34,785 nucleotides of DNA. Origin: a virus. Shown piece after piece: positions 14,248 through 33,902 of the stretch. The translations under genes and the position numbers were made by a program. A model generated the notes under the pieces. It worked only from the letters and a program-made list of their open reading frames with translations. It did not search any database and was not told the origin of the DNA. The stretch covers positions 1 to 34,785 of the IMG/VR virus record IMGVR_UViG_3300032322_002510, one strand, 5' to 3'. Every line of letters begins with the position of its first letter. The first letter of the stretch is position 1.

Positions 14248-14619
14248 ATGAAAGACATAATCAGAATGCAACAATTGGCTGGTATTATTACTGAAAATAA
14301 AGCCAGAAAAATGATGAAAATTTTAAATGAAAATATGGGATCAACAGATTCTGTAAAACTTTTCGATTTCCCCCAAGACATTAATGATGTCGATTCTTAT
14401 GAAGAAATGGGATTTAAAGTTGAAATCGACGACGAAACTAATGAAACTTATTATGCCAGTTTGTCATTTAAAGGACACGATTGGATGGCTGTTCTTTCAA
14501 TATTAGATGATTGTGAAAACTATAATTTACGTCCTAATTTAGAATATGATGGAAAAGTTTATAATTTTGATGAAGCACATGAATTAGTAGATTCTAAAGC
14601 CGCTGGTGAAAATATTTAA
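14248..14619 (+). CDS. CTS-tagged small acidic protein
   Basis: A 123-residue protein that begins MKDIIRMQQLAGIITENKAR. The RMQxLAGxIxE(N) core is shared with the start of the gene at 16354 and with the C-terminus of the gene at 21813, and has a gp21-like site IITE-N at residues 13-17. A second similar site (ILNEN) follows at about residue 29. The remaining 90 residues are acidic and look like a small compact alpha/beta domain (DVDSYEEMGFKVEIDDETNE; HDWMAVLSILDDCENY). No known family. It is monocistronic: candidate promoter upstream, strong terminator (14623-14651) immediately downstream. Proposed head-packaged protein; the mature function is unknown. Confidence 0.55.
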   Translation: MKDIIRMQQLAGIITENKARKMMKILNENMGSTDSVKLFDFPQDINDVDSYEEMGFKVEIDDETNETYYASLSFKGHDWMAVLSILDDCENYNLRPNLEYDGKVYNFDEAHELVDSKAAGENI

Positions 14620-14622
14620 ATT

Positions 14623-14651
14623 AAAGCTTGGGAAACCAAGCTTTCTTTTTT
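14623..14651 (+). terminator. Rho-independent terminator (9-bp stem, GAAA loop)
   Basis: Perfect stem AAAGCTTGG / CCAAGCTTT around a GAAA tetraloop, followed by TCTTTTTT. It comes four bases after the stop of the tagged gene at 14248. A 29-base core is repeated identically at 33930. Confidence 0.85.
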
Positions 14652-14663
14652 ATATTACCAGTT

Positions 14664-15596
14664 ATGGTAAATAATCTAGCTATATCCCTAGTTAATTCAG
14701 TATTAGGACAAGGTAAACCTACAGCCCGTGGCAACTACGCTTATACTTGCCCGTTCTGTAAACACCATAAACCCAAGCTTGAAATAGGTTTTGATGAAAA
14801 TTCATCGCACTATCAAAAATGGCACTGTTGGGTTTGTGATAAACGCGGCTCCAAAATATTAAGCTTATTTAAATCTATTGAAGCCCCCCAAGAAAAAATA
14901 TTAGAACTTAAATCTTTATTAGGTAGTGGTTTTAGAATTATTACCACAGAAACTAAAGCTGAAGCTAAACTACCAGCCGAATTTAAGCCTTTAATTGAGA
15001 TAACTGAAAAGAATATTATAGGAAGACATGCTTTGCATTATTTAAAAAAACGAGGTATTACTAAACACGATATACTTAAATATAATATAGGATATTGTGA
15101 GGGGGGAATATACGATAAAATGATTATAATACCTTCGTATAATGAAGAAGGTAAATTAAATTATTTTGTAGCTCGTAATTTTAATTCAAATTCCATAACT
15201 AAATATAAGAACCCCCCACTTAGCAAAAATATCATACCATTTGAAATATTTATAAATTGGTCATCTCCTCTTATACTGTGCGAGGGGCCATTTGATGCTT
15301 TAGCTATAAAACGAAACGCTATACCTTTATTAGGAAAACACATACAAGAAAGTTTAATGAAAAAAATAGTTACATCAACTGTAAAACAAATATACATAGC
15401 TTTAGATAACGATGCTATGAAAGATGCTTTACGATTTGCTGAATTATTACTTAATGAAGGTAAAGAAGTATATTTGGTTGATTTAGAAGACAAAGACCCA
15501 AGTGAGATGGGTTTTACTAAATTTACTTCACTTATTCAAACCACCCAGCCATTAACCCAATATAATTTAATGGCTAAAAAACTCCAATTAATATGA
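14664..15596 (+). CDS. DNA primase, T4 gp61-like (zinc finger plus Toprim)
   Basis: I chose ATG 14664 (MVNNLAISLVNSVLGQG) because the longer frame from 14628 would start inside the terminator. The 310-residue protein has an N-terminal zinc-binding motif (CPFC near residues 27-30 and CWVC near residues 55-58) as in CHC2-type primases. It has a Toprim domain with LILCEGPFDALA near residue 205 and the acidic IALDNDAMKDA near residue 248, the expected Glu and Asp-x-Asp metal ligands. Length is close to T4 gp61 (342). It would make RNA primers for lagging-strand synthesis with a gp41-type helicase that is not in this window. It overlaps the next gene by four bases (ATGA). Confidence 0.87.
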   Translation: MVNNLAISLVNSVLGQGKPTARGNYAYTCPFCKHHKPKLEIGFDENSSHYQKWHCWVCDKRGSKILSLFKSIEAPQEKILELKSLLGSGFRIITTETKAEAKLPAEFKPLIEITEKNIIGRHALHYLKKRGITKHDILKYNIGYCEGGIYDKMIIIPSYNEEGKLNYFVARNFNSNSITKYKNPPLSKNIIPFEIFINWSSPLILCEGPFDALAIKRNAIPLLGKHIQESLMKKIVTSTVKQIYIALDNDAMKDALRFAELLLNEGKEVYLVDLEDKDPSEMGFTKFTSLIQTTQPLTQYNLMAKKLQLI

Positions 15597-16357
15597 TTAT
15601 AAAACATTCTTACAACAGAATATTAGAAATATCGGATGACCATAAGCAAATTACAATGCCCGATTCTCGTTATTACAGACGTAACGGCGAATACTATCCG
15701 TCTATCACCTATGTGCTGCAATATTATCCAAAAGGAAAACACTTTGAAAATTGGCTAAAACAAGTAGGCTACGCTTCAGAATATATAGTTAAAAAAGCCT
15801 CTGAAGATGGTACACAAGTACACGAACTAGTAGAAAAATATTTGAATGGGGAAGAACTTAGTTTTTTAAATAAACATGGAGACCCCCAATATAATCCTGA
15901 AATATGGCAAATGTTTTTGCGATTTACAGAATTTTGGGAAACATATAATCCAAAACTTATAGAAACCGAAGTTCATTTATTTTCAGATGAGATTAAAGTA
16001 GCAGGTACTTGCGATTTAATTTGTGAAATAGACGGTAAACTATGGTTATTAGACGTTAAAACATCAAACCATATGCAACTTACTTATGAACTGCAAACCG
16101 CAGTTTACGGAAAATGCTATGAAGAATGTTTTGGCAAAACTATAGATAACTACGGAATACTGTGGTTAAAATCCTCAAAACGCAGATTTAATAAAGAAAA
16201 AATGCAGGGGAAAGGATGGGAAGTTGTCACACCAGAGAGATCGCAGAGTGAAAATCTCGATATATTTATGATGGTAAAACGTTTGTTTGATTTGGAGAAC
16301 CCAAAAGCGGAACCCCAATTTGAACAATTCAAAACCACTATAAAACGAACAACATGA
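15593..16357 (+). CDS. PD-(D/E)XK exonuclease, RecB/Cas4-like
   Basis: A 254-residue protein with the ordered motifs of RecB-family nucleases. A His in TQVHELVEKYL sits near residue 80. Residues 137-160 carry GTCDLICEIDGKLWLLDVKT (motif II D and III DxK), followed by the QxxxY motif in YELQTAVYGK near residue 168. There are no Cys clusters, so this is not an Fe-S Cas4. Enzymes of this type process single- or double-stranded DNA ends and are common phage recombination or repair exonucleases. The gene is coupled to the primase by ATGA and to the next gene by ATGA, placing it in the replication part of a mixed operon. It lacks the N-terminal tag found on its neighbours. Confidence 0.82.
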   Translation: MIIKHSYNRILEISDDHKQITMPDSRYYRRNGEYYPSITYVLQYYPKGKHFENWLKQVGYASEYIVKKASEDGTQVHELVEKYLNGEELSFLNKHGDPQYNPEIWQMFLRFTEFWETYNPKLIETEVHLFSDEIKVAGTCDLICEIDGKLWLLDVKTSNHMQLTYELQTAVYGKCYEECFGKTIDNYGILWLKSSKRRFNKEKMQGKGWEVVTPERSQSENLDIFMMVKRLFDLENPKAEPQFEQFKTTIKRTT

Positions 16358-17235
16358 AACAAATACTATCCGAAGAATTTCGTAGAATGCAAAAATTAGC
16401 AGGAACCGAATTAGGAGAAAATATAGAAGAAGCCAAAGAGGATTTATTCTCCAAATACAAAACCAAAATTGAAATGCTTCGCGACGAATTTGTTTCAGAC
16501 CTTAAATCAAATCTAAAAGATCTTAAAAAACTATCCAAAGAGGATAAAACTAAACTATCCCAAATGGTTCGTAATCTTACGGCTGCTGTAGATGATATGT
16601 TAAGTGAACATAAAATGATAAAAGTAAATGAAGAAATGGAAACCCACAGGTTTGAACTTGAAAACTGGCAGCTTTTTTCAGATAGTGAATTTGGAAAATT
16701 AAGACGAAAATATTATTTTAACGCAGATATTGATGGGAAAGCTTTAGCTAACATTCCAGATTTTGTAACTATAATGCCCAATTCTTTAAAATCAAAATTA
16801 GATCCTTCTTTTAATACCAACGATGAATTAAATAAGGATTACCATAATTATTTACGAAAAGAATATGGTATGAAAATAGGCGAAAAAACAGAAAAGGGAT
16901 ATAAACTTGATAGTCAAGAAGATGTTATTATTGCAAATAAAGACTGGAAGCATTTTAAAGATTTTATTTTTAAAGGGATACCTTATGGTAAAACCCTTAG
17001 AGACATAAAACCACCTGACCCTAAACCTCTTCCTTCATCTCCTCAGACCTCACCAAATACCCCACTAAAAGGTAAACCTATTAAACTTACACCTATTAGT
17101 TCTGAATTGTGGGATGGTAGCACATCGGCATCTAAATTAAAAGATGTTATAAAATCCCTTCAACAAAAAGGGTATTCAAATGATGAAATTCAAAAGGCTG
17201 TATTTCCTTCTAAATTAATTTCACAACCAGGATAA
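16354..17235 (+). CDS. CTS-tagged protein, possible internal head protein
   Basis: A 293-residue protein beginning MKQILSEEFRRMQKLAGTEL followed by GENIEEAKED. It has the FRRMQKLAG core and two gp21-like sites (LGE-N, residues 20-23; IEE-A, residues 24-27). Residues 30-95 form a long charged helix (KTKIEMLRDEFVSDLKSNLK). A folded-looking centre contains tryptophans (FELENWQLFSDSEFGKLRRK; KDWKHFKDFIFKG). The tail is Pro-rich (PPDPKPLPSSPQTSPNTP) and ends in a short helical motif (LKDVIKSLQQKGYSNDEIQK). No enzyme motif is visible. It overlaps the nuclease gene by ATGA. Confidence 0.5.
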   Translation: MKQILSEEFRRMQKLAGTELGENIEEAKEDLFSKYKTKIEMLRDEFVSDLKSNLKDLKKLSKEDKTKLSQMVRNLTAAVDDMLSEHKMIKVNEEMETHRFELENWQLFSDSEFGKLRRKYYFNADIDGKALANIPDFVTIMPNSLKSKLDPSFNTNDELNKDYHNYLRKEYGMKIGEKTEKGYKLDSQEDVIIANKDWKHFKDFIFKGIPYGKTLRDIKPPDPKPLPSSPQTSPNTPLKGKPIKLTPISSELWDGSTSASKLKDVIKSLQQKGYSNDEIQKAVFPSKLISQPG

Positions 17236-17244
17236 AAAAAATAA

Positions 17245-18051: not shown

Positions 18052-18076
18052 TTAAAAATCACATATAATACTTTAG

Positions 18077-18105: not shown

Positions 18106-18115
18106 ATATTTATAA
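18106..18115 (+). promoter_or_regulatory. Candidate promoter motif ATATTTATAA
   Basis: Exact motif copy between terminator 18077-18102 and the kinase gene at 18128. The surrounding TTTTTTCATATATTTATAAC is the same as at 14211-14230, which supports it as a functional unit. Confidence 0.55.
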
Positions 18116-18127: not shown

Positions 18128-18889
18128 GTGATCAAACTGCTAACTCTCTTAAAAGAAGCTATAAATAAGCCTAAAGCTATATTTTTAGCAGGACCTGCTG
18201 GTTCTGGAAAGTCTACAATAGCAAAACAACTTTTGCCGTCTGATATCCCGGTTGTAAACATTGACGACACATACGAACAAATGTTAAAAGATGCAGGGAT
18301 AGGAATGGATGTGAAAAATTTTACCCCTGATCAACTTTCCCAAGCCGCCAAATTAATGGCGTCTGCAAGGAAAGTTACAGATGAAAAATACCAAGAACTA
18401 CTTAAAAATCTTAATAATATAATAATAGACGGGACAGCCGGGGCATCAAATCCAATCCGCAAAAAAAAAGAACAACTCGAAGCACTGGGGTACGATACAA
18501 TGATGTTAATGCTGTATGTTTCACCTATAACTTCTTTAGAACGCAACCAATCGCGAGAGCGCAGTTTACTTCCTAGTATTGTATTACGTACTTGGAGAGA
18601 TGTAAACTCAAATATAGACACATATAGAGATATGTTTGGAGAAGATAAATTTATTTTAATAAATAATGATCCTTCAGACGCCGAAACACAATTCGATCCT
18701 AAAGAGATAAAAAAACGATTTTTTGACACTTCAACCGCTAAAGGCAAACCTAAAACACCAGAAGAACAAGCCAAATCAAACGCTGAAGCGGCAAAATTAA
18801 ACCAAGATATACAACAAATGGTAGATACACTACCTCAGTTTGATGACTTATCAACAGCTAAAACTAAAATTAAACAATTTTTATCATGA
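18128..18889 (+). CDS. CTS-tagged P-loop kinase (zeta-toxin/AAA_33-like)
   Basis: A 253-residue protein with a GTG start chosen because MIKLLTLLKEA is the same tag as in the genes at 27494 and 27808. The site LKE-A (residues 8-11) fits a T4 gp21-type cleavage, leaving a mature enzyme that begins about 10 residues before the Walker A motif GPAGSGKS (22-29). NIDDTYEQ near residue 46 and NIIIDGTAG near 99 fit the acidic and Walker B positions of zeta-toxin/polynucleotide-kinase-like enzymes. RNQSRERSLLPSIVLRTW near 140-157 supplies Arg/lid residues. The last 50 residues are a helical Lys/Ala-rich extension. Substrate unknown (nucleotide sugar, nucleic acid end or small molecule). It overlaps the next tagged gene by ATGA. 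Confidence 0.7.
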   Translation: MIKLLTLLKEAINKPKAIFLAGPAGSGKSTIAKQLLPSDIPVVNIDDTYEQMLKDAGIGMDVKNFTPDQLSQAAKLMASARKVTDEKYQELLKNLNNIIIDGTAGASNPIRKKKEQLEALGYDTMMLMLYVSPITSLERNQSRERSLLPSIVLRTWRDVNSNIDTYRDMFGEDKFILINNDPSDAETQFDPKEIKKRFFDTSTAKGKPKTPEEQAKSNAEAAKLNQDIQQMVDTLPQFDDLSTAKTKIKQFLS

Positions 18890-19245
18890 AACTAAGCCAA
18901 TTACGCCAACTAATTAAAGAAGAATTAGAAGCAGCAATACAAGAAGAGTCATACACCCCTGTAGATGAAGTGGGTAAATTCTTTGTAGTTAAAAAACCTA
19001 AAGGGAAAATGACCAAAGAAGATATGGTATATGAAGCTACAGTATTTGATGAAATTAAAATGGATGAAACCAAAGGGGTTTATACAAATAAATCTGAGGC
19101 TAATCGTCACGCTACTGAAGCTTTAAAAGAATACGAAATGCAGCTTAAAGAAATGGAAGATGCTATGTCTGAGTTTAGGGAAGCTAAAAAAGGCATTGAC
19201 GAAAAGAAAAAAGCCGCTAGAGAAAAAATCGAAAAACTTAAATAA
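18886..19245 (+). CDS. CTS-tagged coiled-coil protein
   Basis: A 119-residue protein starting MKLSQLRQLIKEELEAAIQE. This is the same tag (MKxSQLRQLI[KR]EE) as the genes at 33099 and 33405, but with different codons, so it is an old rather than a recent copy. IQE-E at residues 18-21 is the likely cleavage point. A small beta-rich stretch follows (KFFVVKKPKGKMTKED), then a C-terminal coiled coil from about residue 75 (EYEMQLKEMEDAMSEFREAK). It is translationally coupled to the kinase gene and abuts the next start with no gap. Role unknown; a packaged DNA-associated or partner protein is possible. Confidence 0.5.
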   Translation: MKLSQLRQLIKEELEAAIQEESYTPVDEVGKFFVVKKPKGKMTKEDMVYEATVFDEIKMDETKGVYTNKSEANRHATEALKEYEMQLKEMEDAMSEFREAKKGIDEKKKAAREKIEKLK

Positions 19246-20814
19246 ATGAATCAACTTACTAAACTTTTAGTAGGGGAACTTCTTGAAAATAAACAAGTAA
19301 TAGGCTTGTATGGGGGTGGTTTTAAACCACCCACTAAAGGACACTTTGAAGTTGTAGAACAAGCCCTAAAAGAATATCCTGAATTAGATAAACTTATAAT
19401 CTATGTTGGTGGTGGTGTTAGAGATGGGATTACCCAAGAACAATCGTTAGCGGTTTGGGATATTTATAAAGATCTTTTAGGCGATAAAGTTGAAATTCAA
19501 CCATCCCCTTCTCCTATTGGCGATATTATACGCTACGGCAGAGACAATGCAGATAAAATTGTGTATTTCTTCTTAGGAGAAAGAGAAGGTAAAGAAAGCG
19601 ATGCAGCAGATACAGCACAACGCACTAAAAATGTTGAAACAAAATACCCCAATACACAAATAAAAATTATTAAATCCCCTGATACTGGAATTAGCGGGAC
19701 TGCAGCTCGTAAAATATTACTCAACCCAGATAAAACATTTGAGGATTTTAAACAATTCCTTCCTGATGGATTAGCAGATGGAGAAAAGCAACAAATATAT
19801 GATTTATTAAAAAAAGGAGCAGTAAAAGAAAATGTAGCCCCAAACCACACAGGCAAATCATCACCTTATGGTTCAGGTTACAAACCACTTGTTCTTGAAA
19901 TATCAAAATATATGATAGAACAAGGTATGGAAATACAGCCATTACCTAAAGTTCAATTCATAGACAACGACGAAGGTAATGCCCAAAATATTTTAGGAAA
20001 TACAGCCTATTATAATCCACAATCTAAAGCTATAGTATTATATACTTTAAATCGTCACCCTAAAGATATTTTACGTTCGTTTTGCCACGAAATGGTTCAT
20101 CACGAACAAAATATGAAAGGAACATTAGGTAATATTAGAACCCAAAATACAACAGAAGACTCCCATTTAGACAGAATTGAAAGAGAGGCGTATGAAAAAG
20201 GGAACATAATATTTAGAAATTGGGAAGATAATTACAAAAAAACTTGGCAATCTGAAAACCCATCGGTACCTTCGAACCCGGGGGTTAACGAGATAGAGAG
20301 AGGAGGAGAGAATAAGGGGGGTGAAGGGAACCCGGGGGGTGATAAATACACCATATATTGTGATATGGATGGGGTATTGTGTGATTTTGATAAACGTTTT
20401 ATGGAATTTTCAAACGGAATCCCCCCATCCCAATACGAAAACGAATTTGGGAAGAAAGCATTTTGGGAATTAATTAGTAAAAAAGGAGTAGGATTTTGGG
20501 TTGGTATTCCCTGGATGCCTGATGGTAAACAGCTTTGGAATTATATTAAACCCCATAATCCATCTTTATTATCAGCCCCATCTCGTGAAGAATCATCTCG
20601 TTTAGGTAAACGCTTGTGGGTTAGAAATAATATCCCCGGAACCAAACTTATCCTACGCCAGGCCGAACAAAAACAAGAATTTGCTAACCCTAACGCTATC
20701 TTAATAGACGATAGAACTTCAAATATCCAGCAATGGAGAGATAAAGGGGGGATTGGTATAATGCATACCTCGGCTAATGAAACAATTAAACAACTTAAAG
20801 AACTCGGACTATGA
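19246..20814 (+). CDS. CTS-tagged triple fusion: nucleotidyltransferase - HExxH zincin - HAD phosphatase
   Basis: A 522-residue protein. Residues 1-15 (MNQLTKLLVGELLEN) are tag-like with LLE-N. Residues 18-190 form a cytidylyltransferase-like domain with GGGFKPPTKGH at 23-33 (the T-x-G-H nucleotide-binding motif) and GISGTAARKI near 148-157 (ISxT-type motif). Residues about 215-330 hold a metallopeptidase-like region with CHEMVHHEQ at 280-288 (HExxH) and a candidate third ligand in REAYEKGN near 313. A Gly-rich linker (residues 343-366) is encoded by unusually G-rich DNA. Residues 367-522 are HAD-like with YCDMDGVLCDFD, motif I of 5'-nucleotidase-type phosphatases, and LIDDRTSN late. Each domain has its catalytic signature; substrates are unknown. 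Confidence 0.75.
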   Translation: MNQLTKLLVGELLENKQVIGLYGGGFKPPTKGHFEVVEQALKEYPELDKLIIYVGGGVRDGITQEQSLAVWDIYKDLLGDKVEIQPSPSPIGDIIRYGRDNADKIVYFFLGEREGKESDAADTAQRTKNVETKYPNTQIKIIKSPDTGISGTAARKILLNPDKTFEDFKQFLPDGLADGEKQQIYDLLKKGAVKENVAPNHTGKSSPYGSGYKPLVLEISKYMIEQGMEIQPLPKVQFIDNDEGNAQNILGNTAYYNPQSKAIVLYTLNRHPKDILRSFCHEMVHHEQNMKGTLGNIRTQNTTEDSHLDRIEREAYEKGNIIFRNWEDNYKKTWQSENPSVPSNPGVNEIERGGENKGGEGNPGGDKYTIYCDMDGVLCDFDKRFMEFSNGIPPSQYENEFGKKAFWELISKKGVGFWVGIPWMPDGKQLWNYIKPHNPSLLSAPSREESSRLGKRLWVRNNIPGTKLILRQAEQKQEFANPNAILIDDRTSNIQQWRDKGGIGIMHTSANETIKQLKELGL

Positions 20815-21218
20815 AAGTAGATAGAATTATAATAGATATAGAAGGCGATCTTAATAATTTCAAAACTAGCCTTGTAGATGATTTTACAAAATACAAAGGA
20901 TATAAAGTAAAATCTACAACCGAAAATAGAACATTTTTAGACGATAAGGGTGAAAAAGTTCAAAAACAAGTTTACTTACTCAATATCGAAGACACATCTC
21001 CTATAGGTAAAGGCAAAGAAGCACTTATTACCCTAATCCCAGGCAATAATACCATTAAAATAGTAATTACCGGGGAAAATAAAAAACCTTTAGAAGACAA
21101 AATAAACCAATTTATTGGCAAATCTTCCAAGTTTAATAAAATTGGGGGTAAAATGAAAAAATCTAAATTAAAAGAAATAATAAAAAGCTATGTTAAAGAA
21201 GCAATTCAAAGAACATGA
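20811..21218 (+). CDS. Hypothetical protein ending in an internal CTS-like segment
   Basis: A 135-residue protein, coupled by ATGA to the triple-fusion gene. The N-terminal about 110 residues look like a small alpha/beta domain (MKVDRIIIDIEGDLNNFKTS; EALITLIPGNNTIKIVITGE). From an internal ATG at 21153 the sequence MKKSKLKEIIKSYVKEAIQR is a perfect tag of the type found at gene starts (compare MKKSDLKELIRKNIIQEL at 21813), but it ends two residues later at a stop. It overlaps the next gene by 29 bases in another frame. Either the tag is now a C-terminal tail, or a single indel detached it from the zinc-ribbon gene downstream. Confidence 0.5.
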   Translation: MKVDRIIIDIEGDLNNFKTSLVDDFTKYKGYKVKSTTENRTFLDDKGEKVQKQVYLLNIEDTSPIGKGKEALITLIPGNNTIKIVITGENKKPLEDKINQFIGKSSKFNKIGGKMKKSKLKEIIKSYVKEAIQRT

Positions 21219-21780: not shown

Positions 21781-21790
21781 ATATTTATAA
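21781..21790 (+). promoter_or_regulatory. Candidate promoter motif ATATTTATAA
   Basis: Exact motif copy in the 59-base gap before the tagged gene at 21813. A 22-base A-rich leader without Shine-Dalgarno sequence follows. The flanks are extremely AT-rich, so chance is harder to exclude here than elsewhere. Confidence 0.45.
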
Positions 21791-21812: not shown

Positions 21813-22544
21813 ATGAAAAAATCAGACCTTAAAGAATTAATTCGTAAAAATATTATTCAAGAGTTAGAATCACAAGACGATGATGCGGCTTTAGGTAATA
21901 TGTACTCTCCTTTATATGAAAAGAAAAAAGATGAAGAAGAGGATATAGAAATTACAGCAGACGAAGAAACTGAAGAACCAGAAGTTGATATGGATAGTAC
22001 TGGAGATCCTGCTTTATCTGATGCCGACCAAGAATATTTAAATACTTTAGAAACATTAAAAAACAAAGCTAAAGAAATGGGCGACGAAAAACTTGAAAAC
22101 CAAATAGATAATACTATTACTTATTTTACACGCCAACACGTTGTTAAAGAAGGGGATACAGATTACGCTCGAGCTAAAGACGCTAAACGTTTAGGTAAAA
22201 AAGGTGAAGAAAATATTTACGGAGCAGGAGTAAAAAAAGGTGAAAGACTCGAAAAAGAAAAATTACAAGAACTAGACATGGAATCATTAAATAGAATGGA
22301 TGAACTAGTTAACCAAAATAATCTTAGAATGCTTGTAACCGCTGCTCAAGGTATTATCAAAGACTTAGAAGAATTTGAAGATGATGACATTTTTGACTTT
22401 ATTGTAAGCAAAATTAAAGAATTAGATATGCCCGCTCCCAGCCCCATAAGACCTGTAAATAGGCATAGCTGGAGAGATGATAAGCGTATCTGGAGAGAAA
22501 ATTATGAAATGCGTCGTTTACAAAGAATAGCAGGTTTAATTTAA
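21813..22544 (+). CDS. CTS-tagged acidic protein with C-terminal RLQRIAG motif
   Basis: A 243-residue protein starting MKKSDLKELIRKNIIQELES. Residues 30-75 are extremely acidic (KKKDEEEDIEITADEETEEP) and probably disordered, which is reminiscent of scaffold or core proteins. A central region has YARAKDAKRLGKKGEENIYG near residue 110. The C-terminus ends NYEMRRLQRIAGLI, which mirrors the N-terminal RMQQLAGII / RRMQKLAG motif of the genes at 14248 and 16354, so this protein carries tag-like elements at both ends. It is first in a run of six genes with mostly zero or overlapping spacing. An internal scaffold or core role is possible; no enzyme motif is seen. Confidence 0.5.
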   Translation: MKKSDLKELIRKNIIQELESQDDDAALGNMYSPLYEKKKDEEEDIEITADEETEEPEVDMDSTGDPALSDADQEYLNTLETLKNKAKEMGDEKLENQIDNTITYFTRQHVVKEGDTDYARAKDAKRLGKKGEENIYGAGVKKGERLEKEKLQELDMESLNRMDELVNQNNLRMLVTAAQGIIKDLEEFEDDDIFDFIVSKIKELDMPAPSPIRPVNRHSWRDDKRIWRENYEMRRLQRIAGLI

Positions 22545-24335: not shown

Positions 24336-25550
24336 ATGGACCCATTAGATAAATTTTTTCAAAAATATAGTTACAAATTTTCTAAAGGATATCCTGACAT
24401 GAACCATGAGCAGGATATCTTGCTGTTAGAGAATTTGTTACAAGACATGGGTATTGACTTTAGGTTTGATAATATTTTATACGAAACCACAGACAGACAA
24501 GTCTCCCAAAACACAAAAAAAGCTATTGATTATATTATAAAAAACACAAATAAAGGATTTACAACCCAATCCGACCCTAAACGTTTAGGAAACCAAGGTA
24601 AAGTATCATCAGATGACTTTAAAGTCATTATAAATACTTTATTTAAACCAAACGATATCCAAATCTATGGGCCACGTTCAGGGCCAAACTCATCAGGTAA
24701 ATTTGATATGTACGAATTTGATACTGAAGATTTTGGTTTAGTTCGTATTATTTTAAGCGGGGGAGGAAACGCTGGTGAACAATACGAAGCCGAATTTTAC
24801 AATGTAGCCAAAGAATTAGCGGGCGAACCTAATGAAGCTCTCCCTAAAAGCCTCCAAACTCTATACTCAGCTTTAGATATAGACAATGCTGCATTAACTA
24901 GCGACGATATAAAATCTTTTAGAACAGGAGACACTAAACGAAATTTAAATCCAAAAGGCCCAGAAGATATAGGTAAAACCATTTCAGATTTGGACATTAC
25001 ACACAATGACAAAACTTATTATATTTCTTTAAAAAACAAACAAGGCAGTGGAATATACAGCGGTGCTAATATTCCTTGGATATACGAAAAAAACGGAAAA
25101 GTAGTATACGATCCCGCTAAATTTAACCCTTCATCAGGTAACGGCCTTTTGTTTGATATATTTAATATTGATTCTAAAAAAATAGCTACGGGCCTAAACA
25201 ACTATATAAATAAAACAGGTAAATTGACTGAATTTGAACCTATTAACATAGACAATAATGCCTTTAAAAAACTTTTAGCTTCCTCTTTAGGATACGGATA
25301 CTATTATGTAAAAGAATACGGCAAAGGAGACATTAAAGTAACTCCCCTCCTAACTGCTAAAGATTCTCTAGACGCTATCGGTAAAATTTCAGACGTTCAA
25401 ATCAAATATCCTAGCCAAGATACCAAACAGGTTACAATAAAGATAGATACAGACAGCAAATTATTTGGGCCTTCCCAATACATGGTAGCTATTAGAAATA
25501 CTAAAGGAAATGTATTACCATTATCTTTGAGAATTAGCAAAATAAAATAA
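24336..25550 (+). CDS. Possible PD-(D/E)XK-like nuclease (tentative)
   Basis: A 404-residue protein starting MDPLDKFFQKYSYKFSKGYP; unlike its neighbours it lacks the tag. Around residues 135-235 the order E..(YEAEFYNVAKEL)..D..(ISDLDITHNDKTYYISLKNK) resembles the core of restriction-endonuclease-fold enzymes (acidic residue, then D-x(n)-x-L-K). SGGGNAGEQYEAEF precedes the first acidic helix. The C-terminal 100 residues are beta-rich (VQIKYPSQDTKQVTIKID). The nuclease call is a motif-level guess. It ends just before a promoter-like motif, so it probably closes the unit that began at 21813. Confidence 0.4.
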   Translation: MDPLDKFFQKYSYKFSKGYPDMNHEQDILLLENLLQDMGIDFRFDNILYETTDRQVSQNTKKAIDYIIKNTNKGFTTQSDPKRLGNQGKVSSDDFKVIINTLFKPNDIQIYGPRSGPNSSGKFDMYEFDTEDFGLVRIILSGGGNAGEQYEAEFYNVAKELAGEPNEALPKSLQTLYSALDIDNAALTSDDIKSFRTGDTKRNLNPKGPEDIGKTISDLDITHNDKTYYISLKNKQGSGIYSGANIPWIYEKNGKVVYDPAKFNPSSGNGLLFDIFNIDSKKIATGLNNYINKTGKLTEFEPINIDNNAFKKLLASSLGYGYYYVKEYGKGDIKVTPLLTAKDSLDAIGKISDVQIKYPSQDTKQVTIKIDTDSKLFGPSQYMVAIRNTKGNVLPLSLRISKIK

Positions 25551-25561: not shown

Positions 25562-26668
25562 ATGAAAACATTACAGAAATACATCAAAGAATCTATCCAA
25601 GGATACCATTTAAAGAAAAAATCATGCTCTTGTGGTTGTAATACTTGTGATGATAAACCCGCATTATTAGCGCCTATACTCAACGAATCTCTTGCACCGC
25701 GCGCTATATTGTCTGAGGGATTAAAATACCATATAGACAATAATAAACCGCTTACTGAACATGTTTATCGTGCTGGTTCCAAAAACTATTTTGACTTATG
25801 GGCTGAAGCAAGAGCATTATATTCTCGCGGGATCATAGATATCAAAAACCAAGACGATTTAGAAATATTAACTGAAACCCAGTTAGGTGAATTTGGTTTA
25901 TATGAGGGTAAAAAAGTTCCATTAGATTTCATAATGGAAGAAATTGAATTAGAAGAAGCAAATAAAAAAAATACCCACGAAATTACGCTTACTTTTGAAA
26001 ATAGTAAACTTTTAGATAGGTTTAAAGCAATTCCAACCTTTTCTAAAATGTTAGCTCCTAATCAAATGAAAAGTCTAAATGTAGGAAACAATAATTTAAC
26101 TGTAAATAATGTATCTTTAAATGGTTTAGAGCGAATGGAGTCAATGGGATTATACAAAATCTCTAAAAAATTAAAAGAAGAAGAGGAAGAATTTCCATTT
26201 GAATATAAAGGCTTTAAATATAATATTAAAGTTTCAAGTAATATTACAAACGATAGAGGTCAAAAATTATATAAAATATCAATAGATGGTGTAGGTAGTT
26301 ACGATAAATATACCAATGAAAGAGAGGCTCATATTTATGCTAAACGAGAAATCGATGACCAAGTAATATTTGAAGCTAAAACTAAACCTAAAAAGAAAAC
26401 ACCCCCAATTGGCAAACCAAAACGCGGCGGCTCTAAAAAGTTCTATGTATATGTTAGAAAACCAGGCGGAGGAATTAAAAAAGTAAGCTTTGGAGACACT
26501 ACAGGTCTATCTGCTAAAATCAATAACCCCGAAGCTAGAAGAGCATTTGCCAAAAGACACGATTGTGCTAATAAAAAAGATCGCACAAAGGCTTCGTATT
26601 GGAGTTGTAGGCTCCCTCGTTATGCCAAACTCTTAGGACTAAAATCAAACTTTAGCGGTTTTTGGTAA
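25562..26668 (+). CDS. CTS-tagged Cys-rich multi-domain protein
   Basis: The start ATG 25562 was preferred over 25556 because MKTLQKYIKESI is the tag closest to the T4 internal-protein leader as I remember it (MKTYQEFIAEA), with IKE-S as cleavage site. A Cys cluster CSCGCNTC follows at about residues 20-27 and may bind metal. Residues 40-130 form a helical region (GLKYHIDNNKPLTEHVYRAG; YFDLWAEARALYSRGIIDI). A low-complexity acidic stretch (KLKEEEEEFPFE) precedes a small beta domain. The C-terminus has KFYVYVRKPGGGIKKVSFGD, then RHDCANKKDRTKASYWSCRL, a motif I remember as common at the ends of phage virion proteins. Role unknown. Confidence 0.6.
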   Translation: MKTLQKYIKESIQGYHLKKKSCSCGCNTCDDKPALLAPILNESLAPRAILSEGLKYHIDNNKPLTEHVYRAGSKNYFDLWAEARALYSRGIIDIKNQDDLEILTETQLGEFGLYEGKKVPLDFIMEEIELEEANKKNTHEITLTFENSKLLDRFKAIPTFSKMLAPNQMKSLNVGNNNLTVNNVSLNGLERMESMGLYKISKKLKEEEEEFPFEYKGFKYNIKVSSNITNDRGQKLYKISIDGVGSYDKYTNEREAHIYAKREIDDQVIFEAKTKPKKKTPPIGKPKRGGSKKFYVYVRKPGGGIKKVSFGDTTGLSAKINNPEARRAFAKRHDCANKKDRTKASYWSCRLPRYAKLLGLKSNFSGFW

Positions 26669-26669
26669 T

Positions 26670-27497
26670 ATGAAACTTACCGACATACTCAAGCAAATAA
26701 TCCAAGAAAAAAAAGCCAAACGCGACAGGTGCTTGCGTATTGCAGACCGCAAATTTAACAAGCCATCAGCATATAAATCAGGTGCTGTAGTTAGATGCCG
26801 CCAAGGTAAAATATGGAAAGGATTAAAAGAAGAAAATTTAAACGAATCCAAACAAGTAGGCCCGTTATATCATTTTACAGATTTTTTTTCTCTCAAAAAG
26901 ATTTTAACTAGTAATACTATGATTGGATCCTATGGCAATCAAGATATAAAAGGTCGATATATATCGACAACACGTGATAAAAATTTTTATAAATCTGATC
27001 CTAACCTTGGCGTTGAGAATCTGCAAGCCGCTTTAATATTTGATGGAAATAAATTAAGTAATAAATATAAAATTAAACCATATGCTTATGAACCATATAG
27101 AGACCTTGATCGAAGTGGTGCCGAAGCAGAAGAACTAATCATACTTCCAGGCAGAGATTTACCTAATATTAAATCATACTTATCAGGTGTAATATTATTA
27201 AAGCCTAATAAAGCAATAGAATCTTTCCTAAAAAAAGAAAATATACCTTATAATGTAGATTTAAGCGAAGCTAAAAAAGAAACACTCCGCACTTGGTTCA
27301 AACGCAAAGGAGCACCAGGTAAAACAGGCGGGTGGGTTGACTGTAATTCACCTATCCGCAAAGACGGAAAAATAACAGGATACAAACCTTGTGGAAGACA
27401 AAAAGGCGAAGAACGAGCTAAATATCCTTCGTGTCGCCCAACCGCAGCAAGGTGTAAGGATAAAGGTAAAGGAACTAAATGGGGTAAAACAAAATGA
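26670..27497 (+). CDS. CTS-tagged ADP-ribosyltransferase-like protein with flanking Cys-rich modules
   Basis: A 275-residue protein. The tag MKLTDILKQIIQE (IIQE-K) is followed by a basic Cys module (RDRCLRIADRKFNKPSAYKS, then GAVVRCRQGKIWKGLKEE). Residues about 65-185 look ART-like: LYHFTDFFSLKKILTSN (the H strand), RYISTTRDKNFY (S-T-T) and GAEAEELIIL (E-x-E), in the right order. The last 70 residues (KRKGAPGKTGGWVDCNSPIR, then CGRQKGEERAKYPSCRPTAA) are a second Cys/basic module of DUF5872 type. T4 Alt is also a head-packaged ADP-ribosyltransferase, so the analogy is direct. The ART call is inference from three motifs. Coupled by ATGA to the next gene. Confidence 0.5.
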   Translation: MKLTDILKQIIQEKKAKRDRCLRIADRKFNKPSAYKSGAVVRCRQGKIWKGLKEENLNESKQVGPLYHFTDFFSLKKILTSNTMIGSYGNQDIKGRYISTTRDKNFYKSDPNLGVENLQAALIFDGNKLSNKYKIKPYAYEPYRDLDRSGAEAEELIILPGRDLPNIKSYLSGVILLKPNKAIESFLKKENIPYNVDLSEAKKETLRTWFKRKGAPGKTGGWVDCNSPIRKDGKITGYKPCGRQKGEERAKYPSCRPTAARCKDKGKGTKWGKTK

Positions 27498-27811
27498 TCA
27501 AACTACTCAATCTACTAACCGAAGCTAAAGAAAGCTTTGAAACATTTGCTAAAAACCGTTTAGCAGGTGCCGAAAAAATTATAGCCAACGCTAAGAAAAA
27601 AGGTGGAGATGCATTACTAACATACACTCACTTTAATGTAAAGCCATCTTATTACAAAAAAGCCATAAACGGCAAATTTGACAAAGAAGCCGCTAAAAAA
27701 GAATTTGAAGAAACATATAAAAAAATCTCATTAAACATGACCCAAACCGAATTTCAACGTGAAGTTGGACGTTTAGAGGTATTAGGCGAACTATTAATAA
27801 GAGAAAAATGA
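27494..27811 (+). CDS. CTS-tagged small helical protein
   Basis: A 105-residue protein starting MIKLLNLLTEAKES, almost the same tag as the kinase at 18128 (MIKLLTLLKEA), with LTE-A as predicted cleavage site (residues 8-11). The mature part would be about 95 residues, very Lys/Ala/Glu-rich and helical (FAKNRLAGAEKIIANAKKKG; DKEAAKKEFEETYKKISLNM), the composition expected of a small basic internal head protein. No known family. It overlaps both neighbours by ATGA and so is produced with the ART-like and the Cys-rich proteins. Confidence 0.55.
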   Translation: MIKLLNLLTEAKESFETFAKNRLAGAEKIIANAKKKGGDALLTYTHFNVKPSYYKKAINGKFDKEAAKKEFEETYKKISLNMTQTEFQREVGRLEVLGELLIREK

Positions 27812-28233
27812 TAAAACTAATCAACATACTAAATGAAGCTGAACTAAACCAATGCCCAGCTCCAACCCAAAACATTGAACTCAACCTTCAAAATAGGCAA
27901 AAGGCTATCAACGAATACGGCTATGGCCCGTTGAACCCAAACCAACCCAACGAAAAATTTTGGCAAGCCAAAGCAGATATGTGGAAGCTTGATTCTATAG
28001 AAGAAGCTAAATCATCTCGTTGTGGTAATTGTGCTGCTTTTGACATTACATCTAAAACATTAGATTGTATTGCTAAAGGGATAGGCGACGATGAAGGCAC
28101 AGAAGATCCGTTTGATGTTATTAAAGCTGGAAAACTTGGGTATTGTAGATTTTTAAAATTTAAATGTGCCGCAGCTAGAACCTGCGACGCTTGGGTTGTA
28201 GGAGGTCCTATTACAGATGATAAAGCCGTATAA
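27808..28233 (+). CDS. CTS-tagged Cys-rich protein, possible metal or Fe-S binder
   Basis: A 141-residue protein. The tag MIKLINILNEAELNQ has LNE-A (residues 8-11). The mature part contains NQCPAP, then from about residue 70 RCGNCAAFD, LDCIAKGIG, GYCRFLKFKC and RTCDAWVVGGP, eight Cys in all. The spacing CxxC..C..C..C..C with an adjacent GYC and CDAW recalls high-potential iron-sulphur or other metal-binding folds. From memory, near relatives with NLxNRQxAIxxYGYGPxNP occur in marine phages. The 3' end overlaps by 17 bases the relic of the cupin-like gene that begins at 28217. Function unknown. Confidence 0.6.
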   Translation: MIKLINILNEAELNQCPAPTQNIELNLQNRQKAINEYGYGPLNPNQPNEKFWQAKADMWKLDSIEEAKSSRCGNCAAFDITSKTLDCIAKGIGDDEGTEDPFDVIKAGKLGYCRFLKFKCAAARTCDAWVVGGPITDDKAV

Positions 28234-29306: not shown

Positions 29307-29335
29307 CGTATATTAACATGTTAAAAATTTCAAAT

Positions 29336-29851: not shown

Positions 29852-29861
29852 AACACATAAC

Positions 29862-30305: not shown

Positions 30306-30993
30306 TAAATTCATAGTATACACTCATATTCGCCCTGATACAAATGAACCATTTTATGTTGGGAAAGGAGTACCTGGAAGAGAAATTAGAACATGCGGTA
30401 GAAATCAATATTGGCATAACATTGTAAATAAAAATAATGGCATATTTGAATCTAAAATATTATTTGAAGGATTAAATGAGGGTGAAGCACTACTAAAAGA
30501 ACGAGAAATAGAATTGGATTTAAAAAATAAAGGTTATATATTAACTAATATAATAGAATGTGGTGTTAAAGCTGGTACTACCGGAATGAAACACTCTGAA
30601 GAATCCAAACAAAAGATGAGTAACGGTTTAAAACAATATTACAATGAAAATCCTAACCCTAAAAAAGGTATTAAGATGAGTAAGGAAAGTTGTGAAAAAA
30701 AGAGTAAATCTATGTTAGGTAAAAAAGTTAAATTAGGTATAAAAGAATCTGATGAAACTAGAAAAAAGAAAAGTGATGCTTTTAAAGGAAGAATATATAG
30801 TGAAGAAAGTAAACAAAAGAAAAATGAAAAATTAAAAGATAAAAACATTTATGTCTTTTATAATTTATTAAATGATGAAAAGTTTAAAGGAACTAGGAGA
30901 GAATTTCAAGATAAATTTGATTTAAACAGTGGAAGGTTAAGCCATTTAATAAATAATAAAATTTCTAAATATAAAAATTGGATAAAAATATGA
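30298..30993 (+). CDS. GIY-YIG homing endonuclease splitting the oxidoreductase
   Basis: A 231-residue protein from ATG 30298 (MDNKFIVYTHIRPDTNEPFY); an in-frame TTG at 30286 is less likely. Residues 1-85 form the GIY-YIG domain (VYTHIRPDTNEPFYVGKG, GRNQYWHNIVNKNNG, GEALLKEREIE). Several NUMOD3-type repeats follow (KHSEESKQKMSNGLKQYY; SDETRKKKSDAFKGRIYSEE). The C-terminus (IYVFYNLLNDEKFKGTRREF .. GRLSHLINNKISKYKNWI) is a NUMOD1-like helix-turn-helix. The N-terminal domain is nearly the same as in the gene at 28301, with very different tails. The stop overlaps the ATG of the C-terminal oxidoreductase half (ATGA), so translation of that half may be coupled to the endonuclease. Confidence 0.82.
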   Translation: MDNKFIVYTHIRPDTNEPFYVGKGVPGREIRTCGRNQYWHNIVNKNNGIFESKILFEGLNEGEALLKEREIELDLKNKGYILTNIIECGVKAGTTGMKHSEESKQKMSNGLKQYYNENPNPKKGIKMSKESCEKKSKSMLGKKVKLGIKESDETRKKKSDAFKGRIYSEESKQKKNEKLKDKNIYVFYNLLNDEKFKGTRREFQDKFDLNSGRLSHLINNKISKYKNWIKI

Positions 30994-31775
30994 AAAAAAT
31001 TAAATTTGATACATGCATAGTAGGCACAGGTAAAGCAGGAATAGACTTCTCAGCTAAATTAGCTCAAAAGTACAATTTACCTACCGAAGTCAAGTCAACC
31101 CAGATTGGAGTGAGATTTGAAAGCCCACAACACCATTTCCAAAAACTAATCGATATTTCATATGATTTCAAACTTTATAGAAAATTTGAAGATAAAGGCG
31201 TTTCGCTTCGCTCTTTTTGTACAAACAATAATGCGGCATATGTTGCCGTAGAAGAAACATACGGCGACCACAGCTACAACGGCCACGCTAAAAAAGATGA
31301 AGCATATAGAAACAATATGACTAATTTTGGCATATTAATGGAAATTAATGGTATTAAAGATCCGTTTGAATGGTCACGTAAATTAGTTTCCAAAGTACAA
31401 TCTCATGGTACTGGTTTATATTATAGCCCATCTCGTAAACCATCAATTACTTCAGAAGGAAATGAAGTCTCGGCTCACCAAATCGATTGGATGGGATTAC
31501 AATTAGTATTAGAATATTTTCAAGGATACTTTAGATATATTACAGATTTCATTGAAGACATGAAAAAAGTATTTCCAACATTAGGAGATGATTGGGGAAT
31601 ATACATTCCCGAGGTAAAATATTTAAGCCCAGAGCCTCTTGTAAACTACAACGATTTATCCTTAACAAAATATCCGAATGTACACTTTGTTGGCGACGCT
31701 CTTTCAGCAAGGGGTATAACTGTTAGTGGAGCTCACGGTATTTATGTGGCTTCTTCGATTTTACAAAGTTCTTAA
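30990..31775 (+). CDS. FAD-dependent oxidoreductase, C-terminal half of a split gene
   Basis: 261 residues from ATG 30990 (MKKIKFDTCIVGTGKAGIDF); the longer TTG start at 30978 is unlikely. It begins with the strand and GTGKAG loop that follows the N-terminal half in intact relatives. It continues with QIGVRFESPQHHFQKLIDIS and a Cys-containing FCTNNNAAYVAVEE. It ends with NVHFVGDALSARGITVSGAH, then GIYVASSI, the FAD-contacting GD motif of the fold. It lacks its own nucleotide-binding N-terminus, so it must pair with the product of 29336 to be active. It is followed by a promoter motif and the HNH gene. Confidence 0.8.
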   Translation: MKKIKFDTCIVGTGKAGIDFSAKLAQKYNLPTEVKSTQIGVRFESPQHHFQKLIDISYDFKLYRKFEDKGVSLRSFCTNNNAAYVAVEETYGDHSYNGHAKKDEAYRNNMTNFGILMEINGIKDPFEWSRKLVSKVQSHGTGLYYSPSRKPSITSEGNEVSAHQIDWMGLQLVLEYFQGYFRYITDFIEDMKKVFPTLGDDWGIYIPEVKYLSPEPLVNYNDLSLTKYPNVHFVGDALSARGITVSGAHGIYVASSILQSS

Positions 31776-31785
31776 ATATTTATAA
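31776..31785 (+). promoter_or_regulatory. Candidate promoter motif ATATTTATAA inside a start-codon hairpin
   Basis: Exact motif copy immediately after the oxidoreductase stop. Its 3' part forms the 5' arm of the hairpin 31778-31809. Initiation about seven bases downstream would yield a transcript lacking that arm. Confidence 0.55.
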
Positions 31786-31809
31786 TCGAACAAAAACTCG
31801 ATTATGAAT
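31778..31809 (+). promoter_or_regulatory. Hairpin covering the start codon of the HNH endonuclease
   Basis: The core is an 8-bp perfect stem ATAATCGA / TCGATTAT with loop ACAAAAAC. It extends to 12 pairs (one G-U) through the whole ATG at 31804-31806. Read-through RNA from the oxidoreductase would fold and hide the start codon. This matches the logic known for T4 homing endonuclease genes. Confidence 0.6.
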
Positions 31810-32751
31810 TACCAAAGAATATACAACCAAATAGTTGAACGTGCCCAGAATAGAACTTTAGATGGTTATAAAGAAAAACACCATATAATCCCAAAATGTA
31901 TTGGTGGGAATAATGATAAAGAAAATATAGTAAAATTAACAGCAAAGGAACATTTTTTATGTCATATATTACTTTGTGAAATTTATCCTAAAAATATAAA
32001 ATTATATCAAGCTTTATGGTTAATGTCTACTAACAAAAATAAAAAAAAAGGGAAAAGATATAAAGTATCATCTAGAGTTTATGAAAGAATTAAAATAGAA
32101 GCTTCTAAAATATACAAAAATCGAACACAAACTAAAGAAGAAAAACAAAAAAGAGTTAATTCTCAAATTTTAACTTGGGATAAAAAACGCAAAGAACAAG
32201 GTTTAATAATTAATAAAAATTATATTTTTGATTTTATAAAATCATACCCCAATATTAAATTGACTGAAAATAATAAACATTGTATAAACTATTGTTATAA
32301 TGATAATATTAATATTAAAAACATTATTTGTTTGTGTGGTAATGGAATAAAAAGGTTTCAAAACTATACTCAAGGTTATAAACAATATTGTAGTCAAAGA
32401 TGTGCTAATTTATATAATAAAGAAAAATCTTTGCAAACTAAAGAAAATAATGGTTTATGGGATAATTCTAAAGAAAGATTACGTAAAAAAGAAATAGAAA
32501 ATTTATCTAAAATAGAAATTGAACAACTTAGAAGAAAACGAATTAGTGATAAACAAAAAGGCAAAACTAAATTAGGAAACAGTCATAGTAAACCCATTAT
32601 ACAATTCGATACCCAAGAAAATCTTATCCAAGAGTGGCCAAGCATTAGGCAAGCTGGTTTCAGTTTAGTAGGGAATCAAGGTGAACCTATTAGAAAATGT
32701 CTTAAAGGTTTACAAAAAACAGCTTATGGGTACAAATGGAAATATAAATAA
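31804..32751 (+). CDS. HNH homing endonuclease
   Basis: A 315-residue protein. The HNH nuclease core is at residues 24-58 (KEKHHIIPKCIGGNNDKENI, then VKLTAKEHFLCHILL: the HH, N and H positions). A Cys4-type zinc element lies near residues 175-205 (IICLCGNGIK .. YKQYCSQRCANLYN). The C-terminal about 55 residues (PIIQFDTQENLIQEWPSIRQ .. LKGLQKTAYGYKWKYK) are a NUMOD1/IENR1 DNA-binding module like that of the gene at 28301. It is free-standing, between the end of the oxidoreductase and a small hypothetical gene. Expression is probably limited to transcripts from its own promoter because of the hairpin over its ATG. Confidence 0.85.
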   Translation: MNYQRIYNQIVERAQNRTLDGYKEKHHIIPKCIGGNNDKENIVKLTAKEHFLCHILLCEIYPKNIKLYQALWLMSTNKNKKKGKRYKVSSRVYERIKIEASKIYKNRTQTKEEKQKRVNSQILTWDKKRKEQGLIINKNYIFDFIKSYPNIKLTENNKHCINYCYNDNINIKNIICLCGNGIKRFQNYTQGYKQYCSQRCANLYNKEKSLQTKENNGLWDNSKERLRKKEIENLSKIEIEQLRRKRISDKQKGKTKLGNSHSKPIIQFDTQENLIQEWPSIRQAGFSLVGNQGEPIRKCLKGLQKTAYGYKWKYK

Positions 32752-32800
32752 AACTTGGTTTTTTAAACTTTCTTTTTTACATTTATATTAAAATAATAAT

Positions 32801-33043: not shown

Positions 33044-33060
33044 TTTTTATTTTTTTTTGT

Positions 33061-33070
33061 ATATGTATAA
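33061..33070 (+). promoter_or_regulatory. Candidate promoter motif (ATATGTATAA variant)
   Basis: Nine of ten match to ATATTTATAA, preceded by a T-rich run and followed by the A-rich leader of the gene at 33099. The leader CAAACAAAAA-type sequence is repeated before the gene at 33405 and again at 33903. Confidence 0.45.
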
Positions 33071-33098
33071 CAAACAAAAACATTCAAATTTTAAAAAT

Positions 33099-33338
33099 AT
33101 GAAAGTATCACAATTAAGACAACTAATTAGAGAAGAAATTAGAGGAGTATTGAATGAAAAAATTATTAATGATAATCATTTCTTAAATGAAATGGTAATT
33201 AACGATTTTATGTCATATAAGGATTTTGCCCTCTCCGTAGCTAAATATTTGATGAAAAACTATGAACGCAGTGATTATGATAGTTTTATGAGGGTTTTAA
33301 GCTTAAAACTTAAAGGTTATAAAGACGATTATATTTAA
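33099..33338 (+). CDS. CTS-tagged small protein (copy 1 of duplicated tag)
   Basis: 79 residues from ATG 33099, chosen because MKVSQLRQLIREEIRGVLNE is the tag shared with the next gene. A longer in-frame start at 32940 would overlap the previous gene without any sign of use. LNE-K at residues 18-21 is the predicted processing site, leaving about 59 residues. The mature part is helical and polar with a hydrophobic centre (INDFMSYKDFALSVAKYLMK; YDSFMRVLSLKLKGYKDDYI). No family recognised. It is followed by a hairpin without T-run (33348-33372) and the second tagged gene. Confidence 0.6.
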   Translation: MKVSQLRQLIREEIRGVLNEKIINDNHFLNEMVINDFMSYKDFALSVAKYLMKNYERSDYDSFMRVLSLKLKGYKDDYI

Positions 33339-33347
33339 AGACACTTA

Positions 33348-33372
33348 GGTTTTAAGATCTCATTTTAGAACC
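33348..33372 (+). other. Intergenic stem-loop without T-run
   Basis: A 10-bp stem (GGTTTTAAGA / TTTTAGAACC, two G-U pairs) with loop TCTCA, between the two tag-cassette genes and directly before the repeated leader. No poly-T follows, so it may be an attenuator, an mRNA stabiliser or a processing site. Confidence 0.4.
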
Positions 33373-33404
33373 ATAAACAAACAAAAATATTTAAATTTTA
33401 AAAC

Positions 33405-33902
33405 ATGAAAGCATCACAATTAAGACAACTAATTAGAGAAGAGATTAGAGGAGTATTGAATGAAAACCTAACTAATGAAGATGCTACTCTTATTAAAAAG
33501 AATTCTCCATTCGGAAATGAAAAACCTTTACAAGTGGGTGATTTAATTATGTGGGATGAAATAGGTCGTGGGGGGATGGGCCGGACATTAATAGGGAGAA
33601 AAATAGGTAAAGTAGTAAAAATATTAGGATCAGCTAATTTACAAGCTGAAGAAATCAAAACCGGAGATTTACATACAGTTTCTCGTAGAGAATTAACTAA
33701 GGTTCCTGGTGTAGGGGATAAAATAGAAGCAACTTTAGATTATAATTACGGGGCAGGAAGCGGCTCTCAAGGATCTAGTAGAATTTCAGGTACAGTTAAA
33801 AAAATAAATTTAGAAGGTATGACCCTAATGCTCCAACCAGAAAATTCAGACAAAACTTTCAAAGTAAGCATGACTGATTTACAAAATTTAAAAATTTATT
33901 AA
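33405..33902 (+). CDS. CTS-tagged protein with SH3-like beta-barrel (copy 2 of duplicated tag)
   Basis: 165 residues. The tag MKASQLRQLIREEIRGVLNE is followed by N, giving LNE-N. The mature part begins with polar residues and then GDLIMWDEIGRGGMGRTLIG .. KIGKVVKILG. Later come VGDKIEATLDYNYGAG and ISGTVKKINLEGMTLMLQPE. These are short strands with Gly turns as in tandem SH3-like or KOW-like barrels. No catalytic motif. Its tag DNA is nearly the same as that of the gene at 33099 while the rest is unrelated. A truncated third leader copy and a terminator follow. Confidence 0.6.
   Translation: MKASQLRQLIREEIRGVLNENLTNEDATLIKKNSPFGNEKPLQVGDLIMWDEIGRGGMGRTLIGRKIGKVVKILGSANLQAEEIKTGDLHTVSRRELTKVPGVGDKIEATLDYNYGAGSGSQGSSRISGTVKKINLEGMTLMLQPENSDKTFKVSMTDLQNLKIY

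Follow-up and report, generated by a model that had tools for sequence, protein, structure and literature searches.

The uncultured virus record IMGVR_UViG_3300032322_002510 (the window: the complete, linear IMG/VR record of 34,785 bases) encodes at least 12 genes with short leader peptides, referred to as tags below, that belong to three unrelated sequence families. In a group of uncultured, water-dwelling phages the same few tags are, judged by sequence, attached to more than 100 unrelated proteins. We consider it likely that the tags are exchangeable head-targeting signals, which would load late-expressed cargo into the prohead, where an S77 protease would trim them, and that the cargo would be delivered together with the DNA. 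The sharing of leaders among unrelated bodies (the proteins without their leader), leader swapping, the LxE junctions, the presence of protease and gp23 in relatives and the match of one tag to a scaffold-position protein are read from sequence.

The window is a genome fragment without head genes. Its first 13.7 kb encode tail and baseplate proteins, including gp25- and gp6-type wedge proteins, and a plus-strand block from 14 to 34 kb encodes proteins mostly without known function (the cargo block). By the baseplate protein, the closest named relatives are Flavobacterium phage immuto (NC_055915; 47.6% identity) and Microcystis phage Mel-JY01 (PP395634; 45.5%). In immuto the matching block is located at 104-119 kb, immediately upstream of the terminase, portal, prohead protease and gp23 capsid genes, and in the nearer, uncultured relative G002 (58.7 kb) tail block, cargo block and head module follow in equal order. 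The best explanation is that the window contains the cargo block of an immuto-type myophage related to T4. Block borders were drawn from marker genes, independently of the tags; gene starts of the window and G002 were taken from our own gene caller, which was exact for 196 of 233 annotated immuto genes.

Three leader families in the cargo block

The I family follows the consensus M[IKR]xLxxLLxE|[AST], the K family MKxSxLxQIIxEExxxxLNE|x (in the window the 20-residue form MKxSQLRQLIxEExxxxLNE) and the A family [SN]E[EQ]FxRMQKLAGII[TN]E|[SNGE], the bar marking the putative cleavage site. The first-pass annotation of this DNA had described one family of interchangeable N-terminal peptides ending in I/L-x-E before A, S or N. 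All leaders that it named are present at their positions and they are interchangeable, as body swaps revealed (see below), but they fall into three sequence families rather than one. The proposed junction is the usual one, with IQE|E (18886) and LNE|K (33099) as exceptions, and the tags are mostly N-terminal but were found at C-termini as well (genes 21813 and 20811). Three of the starts had to be corrected: 18128 begins with GTG, and the ATGs at 33099 and 25562 are located within longer open reading frames (ORFs), where relatives support both starts.

All window features given below as start..end are on the plus strand. The I leaders are MIKLLTLLKE|A (18128..18157) on the P-loop kinase/zeta-toxin-like ORF 18128-18889, whose G002 orthologue starts with MIRLISLLRE|A, MKTLQKYIKE|S (25562..25591), recognised by its site match and starting with MNTLRNLIKE|S in the G002 orthologue, and, by leader comparison, MIKLLNLLTE|A (27494..27523; immuto orthologue MRLLELLRE|A) and MIKLINILNE|A (27808..27837). 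An I-like leader, MNQLTKLLVGELLE (19246..19287), with a match to the site [ILV]xE[ASNG], precedes a nucleotidyltransferase/zincin/HAD ORF (19246-20814). Another one, MKLTDILKQIIQE (26670..26708), was assigned from its sequence and lies in a predicted helix of residues 3-29 with a pLDDT (predicted local distance difference test) of about 72 over the first 20 residues.

K leaders were found by profile on ORF 18886-19245 (MKLSQLRQLIKEELEAAIQE, 18886..18945; 30.6 bits), ORF 21813-22544 (MKKSDLKELIRKNIIQELE, 21813..21869; 9.5 bits) and ORF 33405-33902 (MKASQLRQLIREEIRGVLNE, 33405..33464; 42.2 bits). A fourth one, MKVSQLRQLIREEIRGVLNE (33099..33158; 39.6 bits), matches at residue 54 of ORF 32940, and 33099 is therefore probably the true start. 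The A leaders are MKDIIRMQQLAGIITE (14248..14295; ORF 14248-14619; 22.8 bits) and MKQILSEEFRRMQKLAG..LGE (16354..16419; ORF 16354-17235; 23.7 bits). The first 90 residues of the 16354 product recur in G002, there on a protein of 96 residues. At C-termini, the K-like peptide MKKSKLKEIIKSYVKEAIQRT (21153..21215) ends ORF 20811-21218, whose G002 orthologue ends with ..KYVKEAIQRA, and the A-type peptide RRLQRIAGLI (22512..22541), which is kept in relatives, ends ORF 21813-22544.

The same tags on unrelated proteins

DNA patterns were scanned over IMG/VR, taking in 120 stretches per pattern, so that the resulting counts are lower bounds. The A pattern RMQKLAG[IL]IxE, its position in the gene left free, gave at least 127 matches in the first 120 stretches. 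Of these, 106 lie close to the N-terminus and 11 at the C-terminus, the remaining 10 being internal or part of longer ORFs. In 257 Gb of bacterial and archaeal genome sequence the pattern had 0 exact matches. The K pattern gave at least 149 matches, and because at most 12 open codons follow the upstream stop in 119 of these 149, its methionine is very likely the start codon. Beyond the part searched for, [LI]-x-E recurs at residues 18-20 of the K matches without having been required by the pattern, E20 being present in 79 of 122.

After removal of the leaders, at least 227 K- or A-tagged proteins fell into at least 129 unrelated body clusters. These were mostly singletons, which suggests that the true number is larger. 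Clustering was done on bodies alone; full-length clustering joins many tagged proteins via their leaders. This body diversity is far greater than that of T4, in agreement with the richer cargo repertoire postulated in the first-pass annotation. The A tag was present in 85 distinct DNA versions encoding 5 peptides, with synonymous codons at nearly every position. Such a spread indicates that the peptide is under selection and that the likeness does not come from recent DNA copying. No mention of the tag strings was found in the literature searched, and among 50,697 annotated phage records they were present only in four immuto records and one uncultured record (a weak K match).

In a set of proteins starting with MNKxxIKQII[LF]EEIE, RMQKLAGLITE is located further in, like a linker with a protease site. 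In L192, L197, L230 and L262 this internal tag precedes a passenger that varies among otherwise similar proteins, and in L187, L241 and L272 it is followed by just a short C-terminal remainder.

Leaders are swapped between bodies

The ADP-ribosyltransferase (ART)-like body of window gene 26670 (26847..27254) begins with [SG][KR]QVG right after LNE or ITE. In the window another small domain stands ahead of an internal LNE|SKQVG junction; the equal junction follows K leaders in L309, L346 and L384 and I leaders in L249 and L302. SLDPVGKED stands behind an A leader in L306 (..LAGLLTE|), and TLDPVGKED behind an I leader in L103 (MKLLNILKE|). The bodies of L176 and L365 are 60% identical under A and K leaders, respectively, and window gene 18886, with a K leader, is 71% identical to L255, which has an I-type start. 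Swapped leaders were detected in three additional body families, with less sharp junctions. As these alignments read, the leaders are modular and swappable, with junctions after [LI]xE.

Putative cleavage sites and late-promoter-like motifs

A test independent of the tags compared the occurrence of [ILV]xE[ASNG], with E at residues 8-24, with that in shuffled N-termini. The site was present in 22 of 69 cargo-block proteins of the window, G002 and immuto against 5.0 expected (P=2e-9), where the 69 proteins are not all independent, the window and G002 being related. In the head module it was found in 9 of 18 proteins against 1.1 expected (P=4e-7); terminase and portal were not among the matches, which were the protease, the capsid and scaffold-position proteins and putative core proteins. 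Tail and other proteins showed no enrichment (15 of 229; 14.6 expected). The enrichment in head module and cargo block suggests that the site is a mark of the cargo as well as of the protease substrates predicted from T4.

The late-promoter-like motif TATTTATA is located at 14221..14228, 18107..18114 and 21782..21789, which is 27, 21 and 31 nucleotides before the tagged genes 14248, 18128 and 21813, respectively. In immuto it is found 24-33 nucleotides upstream of the terminase, portal, sheath, tube and tape-measure genes. Immuto also has tagged or tag-like genes distant from the cargo block (25061-25456, 24569-24994 and 60009-60353). Among them, the A-tagged gene 25061, which is distant from the head block, has TATTTATA 23 nucleotides upstream, and 60009 is preceded by it as well. 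When genes with intergenic room were compared in 17 sequences, some of them closely related, TATTTATA preceded 19 of 34 tagged genes and 150 of 634 others (odds ratio 4.1, P=1.3e-4). This fits an expression of the tagged genes late in infection, alongside the head genes.

That the leaders look alike by chance or composition, as lysine-rich starts of AT-rich genes and generic amphipathic helices might, is extremely improbable. MKK starts are indeed common in AT-rich genomes, and the total count of TATTTATA in the window is not above chance. Such an origin is contradicted by the shuffle test, the body swaps at exact junctions, the zero matches in bacterial genomes and the synonymous codon spread.

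Protease, capsid and scaffold-position protein in relatives

An S77 (gp21-type) prohead protease, the absence of which from the genome would have spoken against the first-pass annotation, was present in all 14 relatives with a head module examined; the window itself, a 34.8-kb fragment without head genes, gave no match to PF03420. The protease was also found in 10 of 26 records related via baseplate or cargo genes. Of 24 large records retrieved solely through their tags, 19 encode it, among them 11 of 11 of at least 81 kb. The gp23 capsid protein was present in 18 of these 24 records, and gp20 portal and gp23 are annotated in immuto. The protease also matches PHROG 207 (head maturation protease). 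Its N-terminus holds [IL]xE[GSA] around residues 17-23 in 13 of 13 starts read (11 IMG/VR relatives, immuto and Mel-JY01; G034 was left out).

Between the protease and capsid genes an acidic protein (23-34% aspartate plus glutamate) is encoded, which we call the scaffold-position protein. It ends with R[MWF][QK]x[LI]AG in 14 of 14 genomes (12 IMG/VR relatives, immuto and Mel-JY01), and this C-terminus is the core of the A leader. The identity of tag and C-terminus suggests that the cargo uses the docking site of the scaffold.

Cargo bodies

The 18128 product belongs to the zeta-toxin group of P-loop kinases (Pfam Zeta_toxin, 46.3 bits; cut-off 22.3). The central domain of the 26670 product, which was well modelled by AlphaFold2, matches the DarT and Tpt1 folds (best E 1.7e-3, probability 1.00). 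A functional precedent for ART-like cargo is T4 Alt, an injected ADP-ribosyltransferase. Pfam matches of 19246 to nucleotidyltransferase, HAD and metallopeptidase families were all weak; its homologues in immuto are annotated as nicotinamide mononucleotide (NMN) adenylyltransferase and 5' nucleotidase. An A-tagged 2H phosphoesterase with two HxT motifs is encoded at L220:3425-3988. The label Acb1 (anti-CBASS, cyclic-oligonucleotide-based antiphage signalling system) was rejected as a firm assignment for this protein, the Pfam score being 26.8 bits with a cut-off of 27. NCBIfam gave no match on 90 tagged proteins.

Tagged bodies might alternatively be targeted to the prohead as helpers of core or scaffold, to be consumed or kept in the head rather than delivered as effectors. 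Head-module proteins themselves have such N-termini, many of the bodies are small and lack known domains, and in T4 the core proteins gp67 and gp68 undergo degradation instead of delivery (PMC9958956). We nevertheless regard helpers as an unlikely explanation: the very high body turnover and the enzyme domains (kinase, ART-like, 2H phosphoesterase) are unlike a structural role, and a core-protein function would favour conservation.

Proposed loading route and points against it

For the head-targeting tags, we infer docking, cleavage, delivery or injection and an effector role of the cargo. Late in expression, the leader peptide would dock its cargo protein into the prohead core. The A tag would present the R-M-Q-K-L-A-G peptide as it stands at the C-terminus of the scaffold-position protein, probably to the docking site of the scaffold. 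At the end of the leader the S77 prohead protease would then cut after [LI]-x-E, releasing the body inside the head, and the freed body would enter the next cell together with the phage DNA. With somewhat less assurance, we favour the wider view that in a large clade of uncultured T4-related phages unrelated genes carry at their N-terminus the C-terminal docking peptide of the phage's own scaffold, transferred there to serve as a natural tag for capsid loading ahead of a protease site, and that together with two further interchangeable tag families this allows an open-ended loading of delivered proteins.

Several points weigh against this route. The literature searched yielded neither virion proteomics of a member nor a structure of a tag on capsid or scaffold; no paper on Mel-JY01 was found, and Nilsson 2020 (PMC7077304) mentions neither immuto nor mass spectrometry. 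The label scaffold comes from position and acidity: no PHROG match to a scaffold family was obtained, and the likeness to T4 gp22 is a short LTExQKxKV stretch, with a non-significant profile comparison. An exact junction was seen in only 2 of 7 swapped families, while elsewhere the alignment enters the leader or begins past it. Cargo-block genes 17245, 20811, 22551 and 23393 are without a clear N-terminal leader. The effectors proposed in the first-pass annotation draw on domain content, namely the zeta-toxin-type kinase, the ART-like fold and one 2H phosphoesterase; nearly all other bodies are without a recognisable domain, and the effector role is mostly unsupported. Finally, gene 1599-1955 of the baseplate block has an amphipathic K-like start (MKTQDFKKIIKEAVREAIQEEL; MKTQDFKKIIKEAVREAIQ at 1599..1655, profile 11.2 bits), which the first-pass annotation left unaccounted for and which is kept in relatives (immuto 81525-81944). 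Its product may be a tail protein with a similar helix or a further packaged protein.

Gene 1599 and its relatives speak for a docking of the tags to the tail, the baseplate or an intracellular complex instead of the head interior. We hold this to be very unlikely, as the A peptide is the C-terminus of a protein encoded between the protease and capsid genes in 14 of 14 genomes, the LxE sites fit the specificity of a prohead protease, and tail and other genes lack site enrichment. Loading into the head is the reading that we retain.

Other features of the window

A fourth N-terminal module, MDPLDKFFQKYSYKFSKGYPDMN... (24336..24452), is common to six unrelated body clusters, and gene 24336 shares only its first 35 residues with the G002 gene at the equal place. 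The module has the consensus MDxxDKFFKKYSYKFPKGYPDMNNEQDxxLLE..., is also found in L082, L085, L097, L101, L106 and others, and in several copies ends LNE|A-like.

At 29318-31775 a single G002 gene of 456 residues corresponds to two window ORFs, 29318-29851 and 30990-31775, between which ORF 29862-30305 and a GIY-YIG-like ORF (30286-30993) are located; an Rfam intron match was not obtained there, and Rfam and tRNA scans of the window gave no match. Judged by sequence look, 28301-29239 and 31804-32751 are further homing-endonuclease-like ORFs (GIY-YIG, HNH). Residues 214-308 of 28301 match a separate G002 gene of 97 residues, as if an endonuclease had been inserted there.

Significance and comparison with known systems

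Of all phage proteins, the injected ones are the first that bacterial defences encounter, but they are normally found singly. With a tag that is readable in sequence, the search for them becomes a matter of listing: at least 129 body clusters are already available, nearly all without a known domain, and, if the proposed route is true, tag reading in metagenomes would list injected proteins directly. The scaffold-like tag suggests a simple route for loading chosen proteins into phage heads and would link cargo selection of the T4 type to a specific scaffold peptide.

Leader-directed packaging, trimming and injection are already known from T4. Its protease gp21 carries the site LIE-9, comparable with the sites in the protease N-termini of the relatives, and in Alt the cuts fall at ITE-6 and LTE-619 (PMC9026906, PMC5694885). 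For internal protein IPIII the first 10 residues suffice for head entry, residues 4 and 7 acting in targeting and 8 and 10 in processing (PMC9026906). The capsid-targeting sequence (CTS) of T4 takes GFP and other foreign proteins into the core (PMC9958956), and inhibition of GmrSD-type restriction enzymes has been reported for each of the three T4 internal proteins (PMC12373910). The system described here resembles that of T4 IPI-III and Alt, with CTS and gp21, in a short N-terminal leader common to otherwise unrelated proteins, and in a cleavage site after [LI]xE, an S77 protease and a gp23 capsid, cleavage here being predicted from the sequence pattern. MKTYQEFIAE|A of ipII/ipIII and MAKINELLRE|S of gp24 have the same form as leaders found here, too short for a statement on homology, whereas the A leader is clearly unlike the T4 CTS. 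Propeptides are possible at both ends of Alt (PMC5694885), and tags here stand at either terminus. Against the three internal proteins and Alt of T4, and at least 10 internal proteins reported for related phages (PMC12373910), we count at least 129 body clusters.

Many head proteins of phiKZ and SPN3US have propeptides that are removed by the prohead protease, and are then ejected (PMC5694885, PMC9026906), which is comparable. These phages differ in an A/S-x-E site and an S80 protease, in contrast to [LI]-x-E and Pfam S77 here, which sets the present system apart from the phiKZ type.

From T4 the present system differs in leaders of other sequences, from at least three families, and in the scaffold-position protein, which ends with the A-tag peptide, unlike T4 gp22. 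In P22 scaffold fusions and with encapsulin targeting peptides, a scaffold-derived or terminal peptide likewise places a passenger inside an HK97-fold shell; the former are engineered and encapsulins are not phage virions, whereas here a natural tag at either terminus is followed by a protease site. We rate the system as new in its tags, because no description of the tag strings was found in the literature searched and they are nearly absent from annotated phages; the scaffold-like tag, the swapping between tag families and the breadth of the cargo appear to be new.

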